A stretch of DNA of 48,272 bases from Oscillospiraceae bacterium (GTDB taxonomy: Bacteria; Bacillota; Clostridia; Oscillospirales; Ruminococcaceae): contig JAFQIY010000045.1 of the NCBI GenBank assembly GCA_017415165.1, forward strand, positions 1 to 48,272. The letters are read 5' to 3'. Position numbers and translations under genes: made by a program. This document shows positions 1 to 43,367 of the stretch, in pieces. Each line of letters starts with the position of its first letter. The first letter of the stretch is position 1. The notes beneath the pieces are model-generated. The model was not told where the DNA came from. It made no database searches and saw only the letters and a program-made list of their open reading frames with translations.

Positions 1-144
1 AATAGTGAATATTGAATAATGAATAATTAAGGAATTGCCTTCGGCAATGATATTAAAAATGTCCGCAAAGCGGACACCTTAACTATTCACTATTCATTAT
101 TCTTTATTCATTTTTCATTAGTCTGTCGACTTTATCGACAGGCT
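1..144 (+). repeat. Family A palindromic repeat, copy R1 (cut by window start)
   Basis: The copy has AT-rich outer arms (AATAGTGAATA-type on the left, TATTCACTATT-type on the right) that can pair into a long stem. The stem is capped by two small hairpins, one around TTGCC-TTC-GGCAA and one TGTCCGC-AAA-GCGGACA. It ends in the hairpin AGTCTGTCGA/TCGACAGGCT at 120-144. Other copies lie at 12551-12727, 19358-19520 and, inverted, 40653-40837. The left end, which in other copies carries a TGTCGAAAA/TTTTCGACA hairpin, is outside the window. It carries no gene. Confidence 0.85.
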
Positions 145-11869: not shown

Positions 11870-12502
11870 ATGAAAAAGATTATCGCTATGATTTCCGCAA
11901 TCGCAGTCTGTACAGCTATGTTTACAGCTTGCAGCAGCGGTGAAGCTGAAACAACTGAAACAACCGCTGATACAACAATTTCTGAAACAGCTGCTGAGGA
12001 AACAGAAGCTGAAACAGAAGAATCTGTTGAGGAAGCACCTGCTGAAACTGAGGAATCCGCTGAAGAATCCACAGAGGAAGATGTTCCTTCCGAGGACGGC
12101 GGAGAGGCTGCAGCAAACGCACTCCAGCCGCTTGTTGACGCTGCACTTGCAGTAGGTGAATGGCCTGCAATGATGGAAGTTACAGACACAATGATGCTTA
12201 CTGACTACTTCGTGCTTGACCCTGAAAATGCAAACTACCTCAATATGATTGTTATGCAGTGCCCTATGAGCGCTACAATGAGCGAAATCATCATCATCGA
12301 AGCTGAGGACGTTGAGGCTGCAAAGGCTGACCTTAATGCACGCCGCGACAAGGCTATTTCTCAGGACGCTTGGTATCCTAATGATGTTGAGCTTGCAGAA
12401 GCTTCCATTGTAGGTGCAGAAGGCAACTACGCTTACTTCGTTCTTGCAGGCTCCGCTGCTGAGGCTGAAACTGCAATCGTTGAAGCAATCAAGGCTCTTT
12501 AA
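11870..12502 (+). CDS. DUF4358-type lipoprotein with Glu/Thr-rich linker
   Basis: 210 aa. The signal peptide ends in the lipobox MFTACSS (Cys about 21). A Glu/Thr/Ala linker at about 25-80 is very like that of the lipoprotein at 1909-2703. The C-terminal domain of about 125 residues has the DUF4358 pattern: a region like DYFVLDPENANYLNMIV, then ATMSEIIIIEAED, then an ALNAR-type helix (here DLNARRDKAIS). DUF4358 proteins are common in Clostridia and have no known role. Monocistronic, with the promoter at 11783 and terminator at 12520. Confidence 0.8.
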   Translation: MKKIIAMISAIAVCTAMFTACSSGEAETTETTADTTISETAAEETEAETEESVEEAPAETEESAEESTEEDVPSEDGGEAAANALQPLVDAALAVGEWPAMMEVTDTMMLTDYFVLDPENANYLNMIVMQCPMSATMSEIIIIEAEDVEAAKADLNARRDKAISQDAWYPNDVELAEASIVGAEGNYAYFVLAGSAAEAETAIVEAIKAL

Positions 12503-12519
12503 TCCATACTTAAACAAAA

Positions 12520-12545
12520 GCGTATCCGATTTAATTCGGGTACGC
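12520..12545 (+). terminator. Proximal terminator hairpin (copy 1 of 2)
   Basis: GCGTATCCGA, loop TTTAA, TTCGGGTACGC. The stem is followed by TTCAG instead of a T-run. A 25-nt identical copy with six T lies at 12732, on the other side of repeat R2. Confidence 0.8.
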
Positions 12546-12550
12546 TTCAG

Positions 12551-12727
12551 TTTGTCGAAAAAGACTTTTCGACAAAGAATAGTGAATATTGAATAATGAA
12601 GAATGAATAATTAAGGAATTGCCTTCGGCAATAATATTAAAAATGTCCGCATAGCGGACACCTTAACTATTCACTATTCATTATTCTTTATTCATTTTTC
12701 ATTAGCCTGTCGACTTTATCAACAAGC
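12551..12727 (+). repeat. Family A palindromic repeat, copy R2
   Basis: Full-length copy. The left hairpin is TTTGTCGAAAA/TTTTCGACAAA (12551-12576). Long AT-rich arms surround the two apical hairpins (TTGCC/GGCAA-type and TGTCCGC/GCGGACA). The right hairpin AGCCTGTCGA/AACAAGCT is damaged here. It is flanked on both sides by the same terminator hairpin. Confidence 0.9.
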
Positions 12728-12731
12728 TAAT

Positions 12732-12762
12732 GCGTATCCGATTTAATTCGGGTACGTTTTTT
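12732..12762 (+). terminator. Distal terminator hairpin with T-run (copy 2 of 2)
   Basis: The first 25 nt are identical to 12520-12544, followed by TTTTTT. This copy looks functional. The 160 bp from here to the pckG promoter at 12926 show nothing I recognise. Confidence 0.8.
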
Positions 12763-16291: not shown

Positions 16292-16418
16292 ATAAATTAT
16301 GATTTATAGAGTTAGGAGTGTTGAGAGTGGAGTGTGGAGTTGTTGTGTAAACTATGGTTCTCTTTAACTCCTCACTCCACTCTCCAAACTCCACACTCAC
16401 AGATAAATTATAATTTAT
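16292..16418 (+). repeat. Family B 127-bp palindromic repeat, copy B1
   Basis: It begins and ends in near-identical 16-nt palindromes (ATAAATTATGATTTAT and ATAAATTATAATTTAT). Inside, GGAGTGTTGAGAGTGGAGTG... pairs with the right arm over 27 positions with three mismatches. Exactly 127 bp, as are the copies at 18481 and (inverted) 36324. No coding potential. Confidence 0.9.
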
Positions 16419-16464
16419 CTCCCAACGTAATTATGTCCAAAATGTAAACATTATCCTGTGCTAC

Positions 16465-16576: not shown

Positions 16577-18481
16577 ATGGCTGAAACAAAACAGTTCAAG
16601 GCAGAGTCCAAACGTCTGCTTGATATGATGATTAACTCAATTTATACTCACAAGGAGATTTTCCTCCGTGAGCTTATCTCCAACGCCAGCGACGCTATCG
16701 ACAAGCTTTATTTCAAGTCCCTTACAGATGACAAGGTTGGTCTTAAAAAGGACGATTTCTGCATTTTTATCGAGGCTGACGGCGATAACAAGACTCTTAT
16801 CATTTCCGACAACGGTATCGGTATGACAAAGGACGAGCTTGAAAATAATCTCGGTACAATCGCAAACAGCGGCTCTCTTGCGTTCAAGAACGAGAACACA
16901 AGCGAGGATATTGACATCATCGGTCAGTTCGGTGTCGGCTTCTACTCCGCATTTATGGTTGCAAAAGAAGTACAGGTGCGTTCAAAGGCTTACGGCTCCG
17001 AACAGGCTTACCTCTGGAAGTCCGAGGGTGTTGAAGGCTACACAATTGAAGAATGTGAAAAGGACTCTGTTGGTACTGAAATCCGCCTTATCCTCAAGGA
17101 TAACACAGATGATGAAAATTATGAAGATTACCTGATGCAGTGGAAGCTCAAGTCCCTTGTAAAGAAGTATTCCGACTATATCCGCTTCCCTATCAAGATG
17201 GAAATCGCTCACGACCATCTCAAGGAAGGCACAGGTACAGAGGACGTTCCTGCTGAGTACGAAACACACACTGAAATTGAAACTCTCAACAGTATGGTTC
17301 CTCTTTGGAGAAAGAACAAGAGCGAAATTACTGATGAGGAATACAACAAGTTCTATAACGAAAAGTTCTGGGACTACAACGAGCCGCTTTGCCACATTCA
17401 CGCAAAGACAGAGGGTACTGCAACATACGACGCACTCCTCTACATTCCGTCACAGGCTCCGATGGATTACTACACAAAGGATTTCACAAAGGGTCTCCAG
17501 CTTTTCTCCAGCGGCGTGCTTATTATGGATAAGTGCTCCGACCTTCTTCCTGACCACTTCTCATTCATGAAGGGTCTTGTTGACTCGCAGGATCTGTCCC
17601 TGAACATCTCCCGTGAAATGCTCCAGCACGACAAGCAGCTCAAGCTTATTGCAAAATCTCTTGAACGTACAATCAAGAACGAGCTGAAAAAGATGCTGAA
17701 CAATGACCGTGAGAAGTACGAAAAATTCTGGAAGGCTTTCGGATTGCAGATTAAGTTCGGTGTTTACAACGGCTACGGCGTGAACAAGGAAATGCTGAAA
17801 GACCTGCTTATGTTCCACAGCTCATTTGAAAAGAAGCTTGTTACACTTGAAGAATACGTTTCCCGTATGAAGGAAGACCAGAAGTACATCTACTACGCAG
17901 CAGGCGAAAGCGTTGCAAAGATTGATGTTCTGCCGCAGACAGAGGTTGTGAAGGACAAGGGTTACGAAATTCTGTACCTTACAGAAAGTGTTGATGAATT
18001 TGCAATCCAGATGCTTATGGGCTACGACGACAAGCAGTTCAAGTCCGTTTCTGCGGCTGACCTTGACATTGACACTCCTGAGGAAAAGGCTGAATTCAAG
18101 AAGCTTGCTGATGACAACAAGGATATGCTCACTGCTATCAAGGATGCTCTCGGCGGCAAAATCAAGGAAGCACGTCTTTCCGAGCGTCTTAAGTCACACC
18201 CTTGCTGTCTGACAAATGACGGACAGATTTCTCTTGATATGGAAAGAACCTTTGCGGCAATGCCGAACAACGACCAGAACATCAAGGCTGAAAAGGTGCT
18301 TGAACTGAACGCTGACCACGCAATGTTCAAGAAGCTCCAGTCACTTTATGAAAGCGACAAGGAAAAGCTGAAGGCTTACAGCGAAATCCTCTACACACAG
18401 GCACTTCTCATTGAGGGTATGCCTATTGAAGACCCGCTTGCTTACTCCAACCTTGTTTGTGAATTGATGGTGGGTAACTAA
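16577..18481 (+). CDS. htpG: Chaperone HtpG (Hsp90 family)
   Basis: ATP-dependent cytosolic chaperone, 634 aa, the normal bacterial length. N-terminal GHKL ATPase motifs are clear: [32 protein letters not shown] and [13 protein letters not shown]. The middle domain contains the catalytic-loop Arg in LNISREMLQ, and the C-terminal dimerisation domain is present. The start chosen is the ATG at 16577; the upstream in-frame ATG at 16568 abuts the GAAAGGA site and is too close to it. Controlled by a CIRCE element. The last base of its stop codon is the first base of repeat B2. Confidence 0.96.
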
Positions 18482-18607
18482 TAAATTGTAATTTATAGAG
18501 TTAGGAGTGTTGAGAGTGGAGTGTGGAGTTGTTGTGTAAACTATGGTTCTCTTTAACTCCTCACTCCACTCTCCTAACTCCTAACTCAACGATAAATTAT
18601 AATTTAC
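18481..18607 (+). repeat. Family B 127-bp palindromic repeat, copy B2
   Basis: Same length, ends and orientation as B1; with B1 it brackets htpG as direct repeats. No other terminator is seen after htpG, so the long GGAGTG-rich hairpin may fill that role. Confidence 0.9.
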
Positions 18608-19318: not shown

Positions 19319-19357
19319 AAAGCACTTCTCTTGTCAGTAAGAGAAGTGCTTTCATTT
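19319..19357 (+). terminator. Terminator of the PHP gene
   Basis: AGCACTTCTCTT and AAGAGAAGTGCT form a perfect 12-bp stem with loop GTCAGT, then TTCATTTTG. Repeat R3 begins directly after it. Confidence 0.85.
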
Positions 19358-19520
19358 TGTCGAAAAAGTCTTTTTCGACAATGAACAGTGAATAGTTGAT
19401 AATTGACAATTATGGTATTGCCTTCGGCAATAATATTAAAAATGTCCGCAAAGCGGACACCTTAATTATTCACTATTCATTATTCATTTTTCATTAGCCT
19501 GTCGAGTTTATCGACAGGCT
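19358..19520 (+). repeat. Family A palindromic repeat, copy R3
   Basis: Left hairpin TTGTCGAAAAA/TTTTTCGACAA, diverged left arm, the two conserved apical hairpins, right arm, and intact right hairpin AGCCTGTCGA/TCGACAGGCT followed by TTTTATT. It lies between two convergent genes; its end hairpins could terminate both. Confidence 0.88.
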
Positions 19521-19522
19521 TT

Positions 19523-20065
19523 TTATTCCTGAGGAGCTTTGCGTGCCTTTGCACCAAGCTTTTTTATGCCACGTCCGACTTTCTGAAATCTCGGAATAAC
19601 CGTTTCAAGCAGTCCGCAGTATTTATCCACAAGGACGATGACCAGTGTTTCACGGTATTTCGGAAGCGCCGTGATATTCAGCGGAAACATATGCTTTTCG
19701 ATTATATCCGCTTCAAGGTCGGAAACGTAAAAGTTTTCACGGACATTTTTCAGCGCCGCACCTGCGTGGGTAAAACCGTGCAGACGCTCGCCCTTTGCAG
19801 GCTTGTAGGTGTGCCAGTCGTAGAGAAACAGGTCGTGGAGCAGCCCCGCCCTTGCACCTGCACGCTCGTTAAGGGAGAAAAATCTGCAAAGCTTATAATT
19901 ATAATATGAAACATTCAGACAATGCTGAAAACAGGTTGTATCGCCGTGGTGAGGGAATTCCTTCATTTTAAGCACGGTTTCATTTTCAAGCAGGTCAGCA
20001 ACAAGATGATTGTACACAAGGTCTTTATCGCTGAGGTCAACCTTTGAGCCTATGGCATTCAGCAT
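19523..20065 (-). CDS. HD-domain phosphohydrolase
   Basis: 180 aa. The histidine/aspartate set of the HD superfamily is visible: HHGDTTCFQHCLNVSYY (about 39-55), AGLLHDLFLYDW (HD, about 73-84) and a later Asp in VDKYCGLLE. The arrangement resembles small YfbR/YqeK-type HD proteins acting on nucleotides. The tail is strongly basic (KKLGAKARKAPQE). Substrate unknown. Start ATG after GAAAGGAG. Convergent with the PHP gene; divergent from the dcw cluster. Confidence 0.85.
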   Translation of the reverse strand: MLNAIGSKVDLSDKDLVYNHLVADLLENETVLKMKEFPHHGDTTCFQHCLNVSYYNYKLCRFFSLNERAGARAGLLHDLFLYDWHTYKPAKGERLHGFTHAGAALKNVRENFYVSDLEADIIEKHMFPLNITALPKYRETLVIVLVDKYCGLLETVIPRFQKVGRGIKKLGAKARKAPQE

Positions 20066-36256: not shown

Positions 36257-36323
36257 GTAGGAAAGGGAATAATTTTTAAACTTATGCAATTATCCAAGAT
36301 AAAACTTGCAGAATTCTATGCAG

Positions 36324-36450
36324 ATAAATTACAATTTGTCTGTGAGTGTGGAGTTTGGAGAGTGGAGTGAGGAGTTAAAGAGAATCATAGTTTACACAAC
36401 AACTCCACACTCCACTCTCAACACTCCTAACTCTATAAATTATAATTTAT
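36324..36450 (-). repeat. Family B 127-bp palindromic repeat, copy B3 (inverted)
   Basis: Reverse complement of B1/B2 with the same 127-bp length and 16-nt palindromic ends. It occupies most of the ilvE-spoVAD gap, where spoVAC would normally be found upstream of spoVAD. Apart from B3 and the ilvE promoter the gap shows no clear sigma-G site. Confidence 0.9.
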
Positions 36451-39576: not shown

Positions 39577-39610
39577 AAGGGTATCAGGCTTACGCTTGAT
39601 ACCCTTGTTT
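39577..39610 (+). terminator. Terminator of nrdR
   Basis: AAGGGTATCA, loop GGCTTACGCT, TGATACCCTT, then GTTT. A family A remnant follows at once. Confidence 0.85.
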
Positions 39611-39650
39611 AATGAATAATGAAAAATGAATAGTGAATAACGAATAATAC
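39611..39650 (+). repeat. Family A repeat remnant R5
   Basis: Only the AATGAATAATGAAAAATG- and AATAGTGAATAA-type arm sequence remains; the apical and end hairpins are missing. Like the full copies it directly follows a terminator. Confidence 0.6.
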
Positions 39651-39680
39651 ATAAATCACCAAGTAATTATTATCCAATAC

Positions 39681-39885: not shown

Positions 39886-39921
39886 TAAAGTACACTATAA
39901 CTTTGAAAAGGGGTATGAATT

Positions 39922-40602
39922 ATGCAGTATGAAATCAAGGGAACTCCGTTTCCCGTAATTATCTGTAAGCTTGAACCAAACGAAACGGTTTGCTGTCAGA
40001 AGGGTGCTATGTCTTGGATGTCACCTAATATGCAGATGTCCACCAATGCAGGCGGCGGTATCGGCAAGATGTTTTCCCGTGCTGTAAGCGGCGAGTCTAT
40101 TTTCCAGAACAAGTACACTGCTGTCGGCGGCAACGGCGAAATCGCTTTTGCTTCATCCGTGCCAGGTCAGGTTCTTCCTGTTGAAATTTCTCCTGCAAGA
40201 ACTATTGTTGCTACCAAATCCGCTTATATCGCTTCCAGCCCAAGCGTTGAGATGAGCCTTTTCTTCCAGAAAAAGTTCGGTGTTGGTCTTTTCGGCGGCG
40301 AAGGCTTTATTATGCAGAAATTCACTGGCAACGGCGTTGCATTCCTTGAAATCGACGGCAGCTGTGTTGAGTATGACCTTGCTGCAGGCGAATCTATTCT
40401 TCTTGACACAGGCTACCTCGTAGCAATGGACGCAACCTGCTCTGTTGATATTGAGTCTGTAAAGGGTGTAGGCAATGCGCTTTTCGGCGGTGAAGGCTTA
40501 TTTAACACAAGAGTTTCCGGTCCCGGTCATATCTGGATTCAGACAATGCCTACTTATGCACTTGCAAATGCAGTACGTCCTTATATTCCTACAGGCAACT
40601 GA
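39922..40602 (+). CDS. AIM24 / TIGR00266 family protein
   Basis: 226-aa all-beta protein. Family features: the N-terminal YEIKGTPFPVIICKLEPNE, GAMSWMSPNM, the repeated FGGEGFIMQKFTG and FGGEGLFNTRVSGPGHIWIQT, matching the duplicated beta-helix-like AIM24 fold. Bacterial members are cytosolic and uncharacterised. Start ATG after AAAAGGGGTATGAATT. Strong promoter, single gene. Confidence 0.92.
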   Translation: MQYEIKGTPFPVIICKLEPNETVCCQKGAMSWMSPNMQMSTNAGGGIGKMFSRAVSGESIFQNKYTAVGGNGEIAFASSVPGQVLPVEISPARTIVATKSAYIASSPSVEMSLFFQKKFGVGLFGGEGFIMQKFTGNGVAFLEIDGSCVEYDLAAGESILLDTGYLVAMDATCSVDIESVKGVGNALFGGEGLFNTRVSGPGHIWIQTMPTYALANAVRPYIPTGN

Positions 40603-40620
40603 TTTGTACATAACAAAACT

Positions 40621-40652
40621 AAAGCTTTCGTGCCTAAGGGTACGAAAGCTTT
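40621..40652 (+). terminator. Proximal terminator hairpin (copy 1 of 2)
   Basis: AAAGCTTTCGT and ACGAAAGCTTT arms; followed by AGCC rather than a T-run. A near-identical copy lies at 40840 beyond repeat R4. Confidence 0.85.
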
Positions 40653-40837
40653 AGCCTGTCGATAAACTCGACAGGCTAATGAAAAATGAATAAAGAATAA
40701 TGAATAGTGAATAGTGAATAGTTAAGGTGTCCGCTTTGCGGACATTTTTAATTTTATTGCCGAAGGCAATTCCTTAATTATTCATTCTTCATTATTCAAT
40801 ATTCACTATTCTTTGTCGAAAAGTCTTTTTCGACAAA
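40653..40837 (-). repeat. Family A palindromic repeat, copy R4 (inverted)
   Basis: Full-length copy in the opposite orientation to R1-R3. The AGCCTGTCGA/TCGACAGGCT hairpin comes first (40653), then AT-rich arms and both apical hairpins, ending in TTTGTCGAAAA/TTTTTCGACAAA (40812-40837). Bracketed by two copies of the same terminator. Confidence 0.92.
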
Positions 40838-40839
40838 CT

Positions 40840-40874
40840 AAAGCTTTCGTGCCTAATGGTACGAAAGCTTTTTA
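40840..40874 (+). terminator. Distal terminator hairpin with T-run (copy 2 of 2)
   Basis: AAAGCTTTCGT/ACGAAAGCTTT as at 40621, one base different in the loop, followed by TTTATATG; this copy keeps the T-run. Confidence 0.85.
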
Positions 40875-41060
40875 TATGTATAACTGTAAGGGAGGTGTGC
40901 CTGTACGCCAACTATCGTTTATGACAATTTACGATAACGGGCAATTAACTTTGATTTTCCGTTTTGTGAGGTGCGGATTGGCAAAGAGGACACCCCTTAG
41001 TGTGGGTGCGATATAGAGGTTTTGAAAGTATTGTTTAAAGCTTAATACAGCGGATTATGA
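40875..41060. other. Intergenic stretch without a supported gene
   Basis: A short open frame runs through on the plus strand and encodes VRCGLAKRTPLSVGAI near its end, but its only start lies inside repeat R4. GGGAGGTG at about 40890 is not followed by a good start. It may be a decayed gene fragment. Confidence 0.4.
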
Positions 41061-41099
41061 AAAGCCAGCCCTGCAACATTACATTGCAGGGCTGGCTTT
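41061..41099. terminator. Strong terminator after the 53-aa peptide gene
   Basis: AAAGCCAGCCCTGCAA and TTGCAGGGCTGGCTTT form a perfect 16-bp stem with a 7-nt loop. The minus strand continues TTTTC, and the peptide stop codon is 4 bp upstream on that strand. Confidence 0.85.
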
Positions 41100-41102
41100 A
41101 TG

Positions 41103-41264
41103 TTAGCGGTCATCATTTGTATGAATTTGACAATTACTTTCAGTTGTAAAAAGCTCAGTTGTTATTCCTACTGAATTAAACATAATGGAAATAACCAAGA
41201 GAATTTCTGAAAAAACAACTTTAAAATGCTTTTTCTTTGCTTTAAACTTAATTACGACCTTCAT
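41103..41264 (-). CDS. Small peptide, 53 aa, basic N-terminus and one hydrophobic segment
   Basis: Not a recognised family. Basic residues (MKVVIKFKAKKKHFK) precede a hydrophobic segment of about 20 residues (VVFSEILLVISIMFNSVGIT) and a polar tail ending NDDR. Support for being real: AAAGGAATAAC before the ATG, a 16-bp terminator right after the stop, a sigma-A promoter at 41563-41591 and a structured leader between. It lies on the same strand just after the histidine kinase gene of the ABC/two-component operon. It could be a membrane peptide that tunes the kinase or transporter, a secreted signal, or a small toxin; these are guesses. Confidence 0.6.
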   Translation of the reverse strand: MKVVIKFKAKKKHFKVVFSEILLVISIMFNSVGITTELFTTESNCQIHTNDDR

Positions 41265-41277
41265 GTTATTCCTTTCC

Positions 41278-41362
41278 GCTCAAGCACACTTGCGGAAGTT
41301 TATAATGCTTAAATAAAAAACTCAAGCATTAAAACGAATACATAATCCGTTTGTGCTTGAGC
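41278..41362 (-). promoter_or_regulatory. Candidate attenuator/riboregulator before the 53-aa peptide gene
   Basis: On the minus strand segment 1 (GCTCAAGCACA, 41352-41362) can pair with segment 2 (TGCTTGAG, 41321-41328), followed by TTTTTTATTT, giving a terminator with an extra AAACG/CGTTT helix inside. Segment 1 can instead pair over 11 bp with segment 3 (TGTGCTTGAGC, 41278-41288). Segment 3 otherwise forms a hairpin TTCCGC/GCGGAA that reaches into the ribosome binding site. The two folds exclude each other. A 29-codon open frame (41322-41411) overlaps segments 1 and 2, with a poorly spaced site. The rest of the 323-bp gap to the kinase gene is AT-rich. Confidence 0.55.
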
Positions 41363-41562
41363 AAAACATAAGATAATCAGAAAACGGATAATATTCGCAT
41401 TGTAAAAGCATTTTCCTTTTTTCTAATTATCTTTGAATATTTTAATGAGCTACACTGTTCATTTTCAATTAATTTCTTACATTTATATTTTACTTTAATT
41501 TCTATTAAGCTCGTAATTTTCTTTTAAATTTATTTTCCTTTGTTTTTAGCTTTTACAATATA

Positions 41563-41591
41563 ATACTACCACATTTTATATTATTTGTCAA
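41563..41591 (-). promoter_or_regulatory. Promoter of the peptide gene leader
   Basis: Minus strand TTGACA (41586-41591), 17-nt spacer, TAGTAT (41563-41568). The -35 overlaps the end of the kinase gene. It predicts a 5' leader of about 290 nt. Confidence 0.6.
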
Positions 41592-42493
41592 TATATTTCA
41601 AATTTTTTAAACCTTATCTCAACCTTAAACCACTCGCCTTGAACCTCTGCCGTCATATCGCCGTTCATACGTTCAGCAAGTCCCTTTGCTATTGCAAGTC
41701 CGAGCCCTGTTGATGAATGAGTGCGGGCGGGATCTGATTTATAAAAGCGTGTGAATATCTGCGAAATATCAATGCTGTCCGGATTATCGACCTTATTTGA
41801 GCAAGAGAAAATAACTCTTTCATTTTCTTGCTTCAAGGTCATTTCAACCGTTTTACTTCCGTGGTCGATAACGTTTTTCAGCACGTTCTGAACAATACGC
41901 TGTAACCCTTCAGCATTACAGTCAACTACTATCTCTTCATCTGTAAAATCTACCTGTACCTCAATACCCTTTTCCTGAAACTCATTGTAAAATGAAACAA
42001 GTGTCGAAGAAACACAACGAACAATATCAATAGGCTCGGTTTGCAGCTTATAGTCCTCGTTCTGTAATTTCGTATAGGTAAAAAGCTCTTCAAGCATATA
42101 TTTCAGATTATTTATGCGGTTCTGAATAACATCAACGCATTGAGTACGCTCTTCCTCCGAGTCTGCGTTTTTCAAAAGCTGAAAAAAACCGTCAAGGGAG
42201 GTCAGCGGTGTACGTATATCGTGAGAAATATTAGTTATAGCGTCCTTTAAATTCTGCTCGTTATGCTCCGCCTTGTGTCGCAGCTCATCAGAGTTGTCAA
42301 GTAGTTCATTTACATTATCCGAAAGCTCATAAAGCTCCCTGAACGGCAGTCCCGAACGCAGACGAAGGTTGGTTTTATTCTTTTTCATAAATGCCAGATG
42401 GCGGCAGGTGTTTTTCACCTGTCGCCTGTAGGCTATGAATATTGAAACAGTTATAACGCTTACGATTGTAGCGATAATCGCCCATATCAACAT
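41588..42493 (-). CDS. Sensor histidine kinase (short, single-membrane-helix type)
   Basis: 301 aa. One N-terminal transmembrane helix (about 3-22) and no sizeable extracellular domain, as in kinases that sense through a partner transporter. H-box ISHDIRTPLTSLDGF with phospho-acceptor His91; N-box NVLKNVIDH; G-box STGLGLAIAKGLAERM. The start follows TAAGGAGCTTTAT, 10 bp after the permease gene. Should phosphorylate the regulator at 44366. Confidence 0.95.
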   Translation of the reverse strand: MLIWAIIATIVSVITVSIFIAYRRQVKNTCRHLAFMKKNKTNLRLRSGLPFRELYELSDNVNELLDNSDELRHKAEHNEQNLKDAITNISHDIRTPLTSLDGFFQLLKNADSEEERTQCVDVIQNRINNLKYMLEELFTYTKLQNEDYKLQTEPIDIVRCVSSTLVSFYNEFQEKGIEVQVDFTDEEIVVDCNAEGLQRIVQNVLKNVIDHGSKTVEMTLKQENERVIFSCSNKVDNPDSIDISQIFTRFYKSDPARTHSSTGLGLAIAKGLAERMNGDMTAEVQGEWFKVEIRFKKFEIY

Positions 42494-42503
42494 ATAAAGC
42501 TCC

Positions 42504-43367
42504 TTATCTTATGTCACGTTTCTGCATAACGGTCATTGATAATAATGTGGATGCCACAAGGAATACTGCACCTACCGCAATAACTCTTGCAAGGTCGCCG
42601 CCGCTTAAATCGGGGCTTACGATTGAGATACAGCCTTCAATAAGATATTTGCTGATAGTGAATTCCTCTGAAACGCCGCACTTATGAATAAGAACATCGG
42701 CAAAAGCATAAAGAAGCGAGGTTATACCCGTTGAGCAGAGGATACCGAAGGTCATACCCAAGCCTGAGCCACGGACAAGAATTGTAAGCGCAGTAACAAG
42801 CGATGCAAATGAAAAATGCAGTAAATAATGAATACCGAACACCTTTGCAAAATCGCTTACAGACTCAAATACAAGCTTGTCGCCCCAGCATATTTTACCC
42901 ATAACCGCTGCCGAGAAGATAAACATGGCGAAGATAATTAATACCTGCACTGCTACCGCCGCCAGCTTTGATAATACAAGCATACCTCTGTTATTGAGCT
43001 GTCCCGCAATGTTTTTAATATAGCCGTTTTTCTGTTCACCGTTTACGAAAATGGGAGGAAAGATCGCACATAGAATTGCTAAAAGCTGACCGGCAATATT
43101 TGAGTTTATAAGGTCGGTGAAATCAATTCGGTCTGCCCATTCAGACTTTGTATCAACATACACTCCGAAGGTCACATCTGCCTCCTCCGGCGGAACTTCA
43201 GAAACGCTCATATCAGTCATATCCACGACTGTATCAGTATGTGTTGTTGCGTCATAATGCGTCATATACACGCTGAAAAAAGACACGAATACAGTTACCG
43301 CAATCATTATCCAGAAGGACTTTATACGAAAAAGTCTGTGCAGATCCATTTTTGTTAAATTAAGCAT
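42504..43367 (-). CDS. ABC transporter permease (ABC-2 type)
   Basis: 287 aa with about six transmembrane helices. The large first loop after helix 1 (TDTVVDMTDMSVSEVPPEE onward) is outside. The NGEQKNGYIKNIAGQLNNRG stretch before helix 3 is typical of permeases partnered with BcrA/lantibiotic-immunity ATPases. It overlaps the ATPase gene by 8 bp; start ATG after CAGGAGGAAACGGCA. Predicted role: extrusion of, or self-protection from, a peptide or lipid-active compound; substrate unknown. Confidence 0.85.
   Translation of the reverse strand: MLNLTKMDLHRLFRIKSFWIMIAVTVFVSFFSVYMTHYDATTHTDTVVDMTDMSVSEVPPEEADVTFGVYVDTKSEWADRIDFTDLINSNIAGQLLAILCAIFPPIFVNGEQKNGYIKNIAGQLNNRGMLVLSKLAAVAVQVLIIFAMFIFSAAVMGKICWGDKLVFESVSDFAKVFGIHYLLHFSFASLVTALTILVRGSGLGMTFGILCSTGITSLLYAFADVLIHKCGVSEEFTISKYLIEGCISIVSPDLSGGDLARVIAVGAVFLVASTLLSMTVMQKRDIR

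Follow-up and report, generated by a model that had tools for sequence, protein, structure and literature searches.

The closest described parallels to the locus analyzed here are found in the IS1182 family of insertion sequences (ISs). In the model proposed for IS1272, the transposon ends attack the 3' feet of a target stem-loop, which is lost upon insertion; the alternative drawn in the same source, the hypothetical pathway b of the Fig. 13 legend, is an attack on the 5' feet that would duplicate the whole stem-loop (PMC5678879). IS1272 and TnSha1 reside in hairpins, five of which are stated to be terminators confirmed by RNA-seq, and the target is partly deleted (PMC4923244). Palindrome targeting by IS1182 members is already known as such, given that Siguier et al. 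noted palindrome-targeting members of this family, with no detailed data (as related in PMC5678879). Long repeats of variable length have been reported for IS1549 and IS1634, for which the available part of the report gives no mechanistic model (PMC2266710). A search of the open-access literature, with most subscription papers outside its scope, returned no report of the duplication of a whole terminator hairpin by an IS or a MITE. Group IIC introns share with the MITE described here the insertion beside terminator stem-loops but differ from it in their ribozyme and reverse transcriptase, the single orientation of insertion, and the lack of stem-loop duplication. ISfinder reportedly lists IS1182 repeats of 0-60 bp, and its curators may know of long repeats.

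The DNA analyzed here (hereinafter, the window) is the entire 48,272-base contig C43 of an Oscillospiraceae genome assembly (G000; 2.62 Mb in 75 contigs, 93% complete) that breaks at repeats. Like IS1272 and TnSha1, the element in question, probably mobilized by an IS1182-family transposase, is found in both orientations in hairpins of unrelated sequence, several of them terminators, but those two systems eliminate the target stem-loop wholly or in part and make no duplication (PMC5678879, PMC4923244). Here, IS1272-type replacement of the stem-loop is ruled out because the stem-loop is present twice. The element resembles IS1549 and IS1634 in its long direct repeats of variable length and differs from them in that the available part of the report states no link to hairpins (PMC2266710) and in the transposase family identified by the NCBIfam model. 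Similarly to BOX, RUP, SPRITE and QMITE, it is short, AT-rich, multi-copy, often intergenic, non-autonomous and capable of forming stem-loops; unlike it, these repeats are not described as targeting terminator hairpins with duplication in the accessible part of the source (PMC10969869). A group IIC intron was rejected as well, because an Rfam search of the window detected only tRNA and no open reading frame (ORF) of at least 70 aa spans a copy of the element.

The present data fit the duplicating branch of the IS1272 model, and we consider it highly probable that an IS1182-family DDE transposase mobilizes the MITE, selecting stem-loop targets by their shape, attacking each at both feet and thereby duplicating the hairpin. 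DDE transposases normally leave a duplication of approximately fixed length; here, both in the MITE and in autonomous relatives from family and phylum samples, the duplication is 20 to 40 nt long and is set by the hairpin. These loci make up a natural data set on stem-loop duplication, the branch proposed but unobserved for IS1272, and may be relevant to the long variable repeats described in other families with no mechanism.

At the focal locus, the element has invaded the terminator of a plus-strand AIM24-family gene (39922..40602; Pfam PF01987, 1.4e-71), the product of which has its nearest named records in Oscillospiraceae and Ruminococcus MAGs. The copy of the element, R4, is 187 nt long and lies on the minus strand (40653..40839), with the AGTTTGTCG end at 40839 and the AGCCTGTCGA end at 40653. 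The gene-proximal stem-loop (40621..40652, plus strand; AAAGCTTTCGTGCCTAAGGGTACGAAAGCTTT) directly abuts AGCCTGTCGA of the element, has lost the T-run and is not called terminator-like. The gene-distal stem-loop (40840..40871, plus strand; AAAGCTTTCGTGCCTAATGGTACGAAAGCTTT) keeps the T-run (GCTTTTTATATG), leads into TTATATG and is called terminator-like by a pattern scan that counts the T's of its stem too. Both fold as 14-bp stems, at -20.9 and -21.1 kcal/mol (z -7.2 and -8.0), respectively, the distal copy having been folded with 9 extra bases, and they are identical in 31 of 32 positions, the sole mismatch being a loop base. These findings agree with the original prediction that a hairpin pair with one mismatch flanks R4 and that only the copy far from the gene retains its T-run; the predicted span, 40617..40874, correctly encloses both hairpins, but positions 40617-40620 lie outside the duplication. 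The T-run accompanies only the distal copy because the duplicated stretch is the stem-loop without it. The repeat finder reports 37 nt at R4, as opposed to the 32 nt obtained by comparison with empty sites (see below); the five surplus letters, AAACT, match because the element's own end is ACAAACT, so that one occurrence is part of the left flank and the other is part of the element end. The pattern scan alone also detected a terminator-like hairpin within the R4 element (40724..40748, plus strand).

The second case in the window, identified by sequence reading, consists of a MITE copy (12548..12729, plus strand) in the orientation opposite to that of R4, preceded by the proximal hairpin (12518..12547, plus strand) and followed by the distal one (12730..12759, plus strand), next to which is the T-run. 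Comparison of 12518-12759 with 40621-40871 upholds the claim of a second case that involves a different terminator and a reversed element. At a third place, a lone hairpin (19319..19352, plus strand) adjoins a MITE copy at approximately 19353-19520, with the second hairpin copy absent; within the 19319-19530 stretch, the element's own end hairpin, AGCCTGTCGA..TCGACAGGCT, leads into TTTTATT, and the element itself may supply the terminator. A further plus-strand copy (1..143) is cut by the contig start, and its right-flank hairpin, AGGGTACCGATTTTCGGTACCCT, is found again by the cut copy that ends contig C15.

Across the genome, the core pattern of the element occurs in at least 56 places, compared to 2 for the reversed control, and the end patterns yield 47 strand-wise matches for the left end and 37 per strand for the right end. 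In total, 54 element places were found in the DNA examined, namely, 53 distinct ones (55 matches, two of which were seen twice) and one degenerate copy; approximately 48 copies are more likely than 54 because 12 contig-cut places look like six split copies. When an autonomous copy was sought in this genome with both end patterns, the matches, compared by eye, coincided with the known copies except for the degenerate one, C33:2474. The 38 of the 53 places that are uncut by contig ends were used as the test set. The original prediction had named as its refuting condition that most other copies lack a flanking hairpin duplication, and had held that the pattern is not coincidental. The former proved not to be the case: 27 of the 38 uncut copies carry the hairpin as a direct repeat on both sides, 25 of these detected by script and two by eye (L010, with a 15-nt repeat that includes 14 matches, and L018, in which the script missed the right end), and 11 do not. 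The latter claim stands, given that a direct repeat score of at least 36 was obtained for the copy's own flanks in 25 of the 38 cases, compared to 1 of 1406 mismatched pairs and 2 of 1000 positions drawn at random from the window. A hairpin score of 8 or more on at least one flank was reached by 32 of the 38 copies and by 29 of 1000 random 50-mers, and the flanking hairpin sequences differ from locus to locus.

Among the 11 copies without the two-sided repeat, the right element end was not located in five (L033, L038, L039, L041 and L042). A hairpin with a score of at least 8 is nevertheless present on one flank of seven of the 11 (L028, L033, L035, L038, L042, L051 and the copy at window position 19353) and one with a score of 7 in two more (L039 and L040), leaving L041 and the second L009 copy, for which the scripted scoring found no flank hairpin. 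L040 (G000 C33:129122-129183) is a divergent copy, with the left-end motif reversed and across the core, and is perhaps rearranged. No clear trend was detected when the decay of the hairpin copies without the T-run was compared to that of the T-bearing copies.

The 15 cut copies have one testable flank each, and the hairpin score is at least 8 in 13 of these. Twelve of them form six pairs of left and right flanks with matching hairpins (L006/L031, L032/L045, L034/L049, L036/window start, L037/L047 and L046/L048); L030 has a hairpin with no partner, and L024 and L050 have no hairpin. Such pairing, an incidental result and not a designed test, is the pattern that would arise if single copies with duplicated hairpins on either side had been split by the assembly. 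The paired hairpins suggest six candidate contig adjacencies (C28/C4, C7/C46, C11/C61, C15/C43, the latter being the window, C27/C51 and C48/C61), and this kind of pairing may allow matching of broken contigs.

The consensus of the element, built from 30 of the 38 uncut copies, with eight truncated or divergent copies excluded, is 181 nt long; the median pairwise identity is 94.2% (range 77.4-98.8%). The element has no ORF and folds as a single long hairpin that bears a small one at either end. Its ends read AGTTTGTCGAAAAAG on one strand and GAGCCTGTCGATAAAG on the opposite one, and the terminal inverted repeats are imperfect, AG(TT/CC)TGTCGA, with 8 of 10 letters shared between AGTTTGTCGA and AGCCTGTCGA. 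The short, multi-copy, dispersed sequence, the terminal inverted repeats, the target-site duplication, the existence of empty sites and the lack of a transposase ORF together identify this element as a MITE, a non-autonomous DNA transposon.

IS1182-type transposase genes (PF13751) are present in 10 of the 61 genomes of the relatives sample, whereas this genome gave no matches to PF05598 and PF13751 or to the L166 protein (E <= 0.001 in each case), to the L174 protein (E <= 1e-10) or to NF033551 (E <= 1e-60). The L166 transposase, from a genome of the same genus (G001), scores 392.2 bits against the NCBIfam IS1182 model NF033551 (cut-off 270), and the ends of this IS, CAGCTTGTCGAAAAAG / CAGCCTGTAGAAAAAC, are close to those of the MITE, with 14 of 15 letters shared at one end between CAGTTTGTCGAAAAAG of the MITE and CAGCTTGTCGAAAAAG. 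The L174 transposase, from G049, scores 385.9 bits against the same model and cut-off; its IS is bounded by CAGACTGTCGAAAAAC, with GGTGTGGGGCGGGAAGATTCCCGCCCCACACC on both sides, differing by two loop changes. Other IS1182-type elements have ends like CAGNNTGTC(G/A)AAAAA. Judging by these comparisons, the ends of the MITE match the terminal repeats of NF033551-positive IS1182-family elements. The MITE core is unlike the IS interiors when the consensus is compared by eye with the IS ends, so the MITE is not a simple deletion derivative of any IS seen.

The search of 396 family genomes with the L174 protein produced matches in 48, with 29 loci among the matches listed, and the search of 299 phylum genomes with NF033551 produced matches in 60, with 30 loci among the matches listed; these 59 loci were examined together with 11 from the PF13751 search of the relatives. 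Counting distinct elements with CAG-type ends (GAG in L214, TAG at one L235 end) and both flanks readable, 17 of 26 ISs lie between two copies of one hairpin (L174, L176, L178, L179, L180, L183, L184, L185, L187, L214, L215, L217, L218, L224, L228, L235 and L237). Six of the 26 (L167, L181, L182, L186, L188 and L220) have complete but different hairpins on the two sides, an outcome expected from recombination between copies or from misassembly; in L216, the hairpin is limited to the left side, and no hairpin stands beside L190, which has an 8-bp repeat, or L240. Two of the loci, L169 and L239, show L178 and L174 again, respectively; in L166 and L226, the sole readable flank carries a hairpin, and the remaining loci are cut, degenerate, of another end type or without a placeable end pair. 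These counts come from draft genomes, in which most of the sampled elements were seen once, and many of the IS hairpin calls were made by eye. In the same samples, a hairpin direct repeat is absent from all 10 elements with GGGGCTGT-like ends (L164, L165, L213, L221, L222, L223, L225, L227, L229 and L241). In five of these (L221, L222, L227, L229 and L241), a T-rich run directly follows the element, as if the IS might have replaced the terminator stem. In a transposase tree of 47 rows (5 of 52 omitted as too short), the CAG-labelled and GGGGCTGT-labelled rows are split by one change, with rows of neither kind uncounted; given the long-branch warnings, and that several of the 26 rows labelled CAG-end (L175, L177, L219, L226) had one or no end placed, the tree was used only for this split.

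An alternative is that the hairpins are targeted by a transposase outside the IS1182 family whose element shares terminal letters with IS1182 members by chance. No helper transposase was found in the assembly, as this explanation would allow, but chance would have to account both for the terminal letters, 14 of 15 at one end in an IS from the same genus, and for the unusual duplication, and both of these are common to NF033551-positive elements; we regard this alternative as improbable. An IS1182-family helper appears to be the better explanation for the mobility of the MITE.

The boundaries of the repeats bear on how the target is recognized. The 25 duplications detected by script are 24-40 nt long (median 27), with a length that tracks the hairpin and no fixed stagger, and in all 25, the duplication ends within 0-3 nt of the hairpin feet. 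Of the outer 8 positions, 7 or 8 are paired in all 25 cases, compared to 509 of 5000 random 29-mers with the same register freedom. The hairpin is itself the target-site duplication. Gene context was assessed with a crude, mechanical ORF caller, which erred at least once (for the copy at 12548): none of the 38 lies inside an ORF of at least 70 aa by script, and in 34, a gene 3' end faces the element within 160 nt. In the 25 scripted cases, the genes point from the CAGTTTG end of the element in 8, from its opposite end in 6 and from both sides in 10; the one case that the ORF caller left unassigned follows a plus-strand gene, 11870-12502. The orientation of the element is therefore free, in accord with the claim that the duplication follows the direction of the terminator and not that of the element.

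Long-stagger insertion without hairpin recognition would also produce long variable duplications in intergenic DNA, with terminators hit only because intergenic insertions survive. Repeats of this kind are known for IS1549/IS1634, with no mechanism proposed in the available part of the report (PMC2266710), and the absence of copies from ORFs fits such a scenario; survival alone, however, would not put both repeat ends at hairpin feet, as seen in all 25 scripted copies and, by eye, in 17 ISs. Furthermore, the L174 transposase scores 22.3 bits against the IS1634 model NF033559, below the cut-off of 100, and this model is not among the L166 matches. This explanation is marginally less probable still than that invoking an unrelated transposase.

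Under the preferred scenario of stem-loop targeting, the IS1182-family transposase would pick stem-loops, mostly intrinsic terminators, by shape and not by sequence; both transposon 3' ends would join opposite feet of the extruded hairpin (cruciform), and gap repair would copy the entire stem-loop onto both sides because the 3' ends are joined at opposite feet. Extrusion of the target hairpin is suggested by the products, 20-40 nt long and ending at the feet, which would not be expected of a rigid complex with a fixed stagger, and it is these repeat boundaries that point to cruciform-directed strand transfer at both hairpin feet. The T-run lies outside the stem and is left beside the downstream copy, which preserves a complete terminator-like signal, and the terminator probably keeps working from the distal copy. 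Insertion into a terminator that rebuilds a terminator-like signal downstream may represent a safe-site strategy. More broadly, we are inclined to favor, with some reservation, a scheme in which IS1182 transposases recognize the shape of the four-way junction formed at the foot of an extruded hairpin, with the duplication length set by the target; the CAG-end branch would double the hairpin, the GGGGCTGT-end branch would not, perhaps like IS1272, and high-copy MITEs would use the doubling to colonize terminators without breaking them.

Empty sites in relatives reveal the state before the insertion. In a DNA search of 21 genomes of the genus with window positions 39900-42600 as the query, the matches in G003 (88%) and G005 (85%) stop at query base 753, that is, window position 40652, the last base of the proximal hairpin; matches in the remaining genomes end earlier, inside or just past the AIM24 gene. 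The orthologous AIM24 sites of G003 and G005 contain one hairpin with a T-run and no element. In both, the hairpin ends in GCTTT and is followed by TTTATGTATAACTGCAAGGGAGGTGT, compared to TTATATGTATAACTGTAAGGGAGGTGT to the right of the distal copy in the window; the T-run and TATGTATAACTG after the hairpin match the window sequence there. Given that these empty sites hold a single hairpin, the duplication arrived with the insertion, and because the loop is TAAGGG in both relatives, the mismatch in the window most likely arose in the distal copy. At a second locus, L013, G005 and G003 have a single hairpin, compared to the two that flank the element in the genome analyzed; because the hairpin letters in the relatives differ from those in this genome, this comparison shows the single-copy state only. 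The third relative examined at L013, G010 (L258), has no clear hairpin. Downstream of AIM24 orthologs in named records, no element was found (12 of 80 loci, approximately 190 nt each), and the hairpins there are too diverged for use as empty sites.

Palindromes are prone to replication slippage, so that a hairpin might have been duplicated in this manner, or tandem terminators might have been already there, with the element inserted between the copies later. The single hairpin in the element-free orthologous sites at the two loci tested speaks against this possibility, as do the locus-specific duplicates flanking the element in 27 of 38 copies, and we deem it very unlikely. That the element brings terminators along, as a mobile terminator cassette, is the least probable explanation and hardly credible: its end hairpins do fold, and an internal one is terminator-like, but the flanking hairpins vary between loci, and one was already present at an empty site.

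Several additional observations on repeats and IS ends were made along the way. In G001 and G008, five loci (L053, L054, L058, L067 and L073) contain AT-rich palindromic repeats with AATTAATAATTAAT arms around small GC hairpins; the core of these repeats resembles the MITE core, whereas the ends differ, and the MITE may combine such a core with IS1182-type ends. Other genomes of the genus also gave weak matches to the core; at the 16 loci inspected by eye, these are AT-rich repeats of other kinds or single motifs, and no hairpin duplication was seen. The IS ends in L178, L180, L185 and L187 contain hairpins with a preceding A-run and a trailing T-run, like bidirectional terminators, and could shield the transposase gene from read-through once the host hairpin loses its T-run. 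The window also contains three copies of a second repeat family (16292-16420, 18481-18606 and 36322-36450), with ends ATAAATTATAATTTAT and arms GAGTGTGGAGTT, which by eye are not located beside duplicated terminators. Finally, at 39578-39653, a terminator-like hairpin after an nrdR-like gene is followed by an AT-rich stretch similar to the MITE's inner arm; this may be another element or a decayed one.
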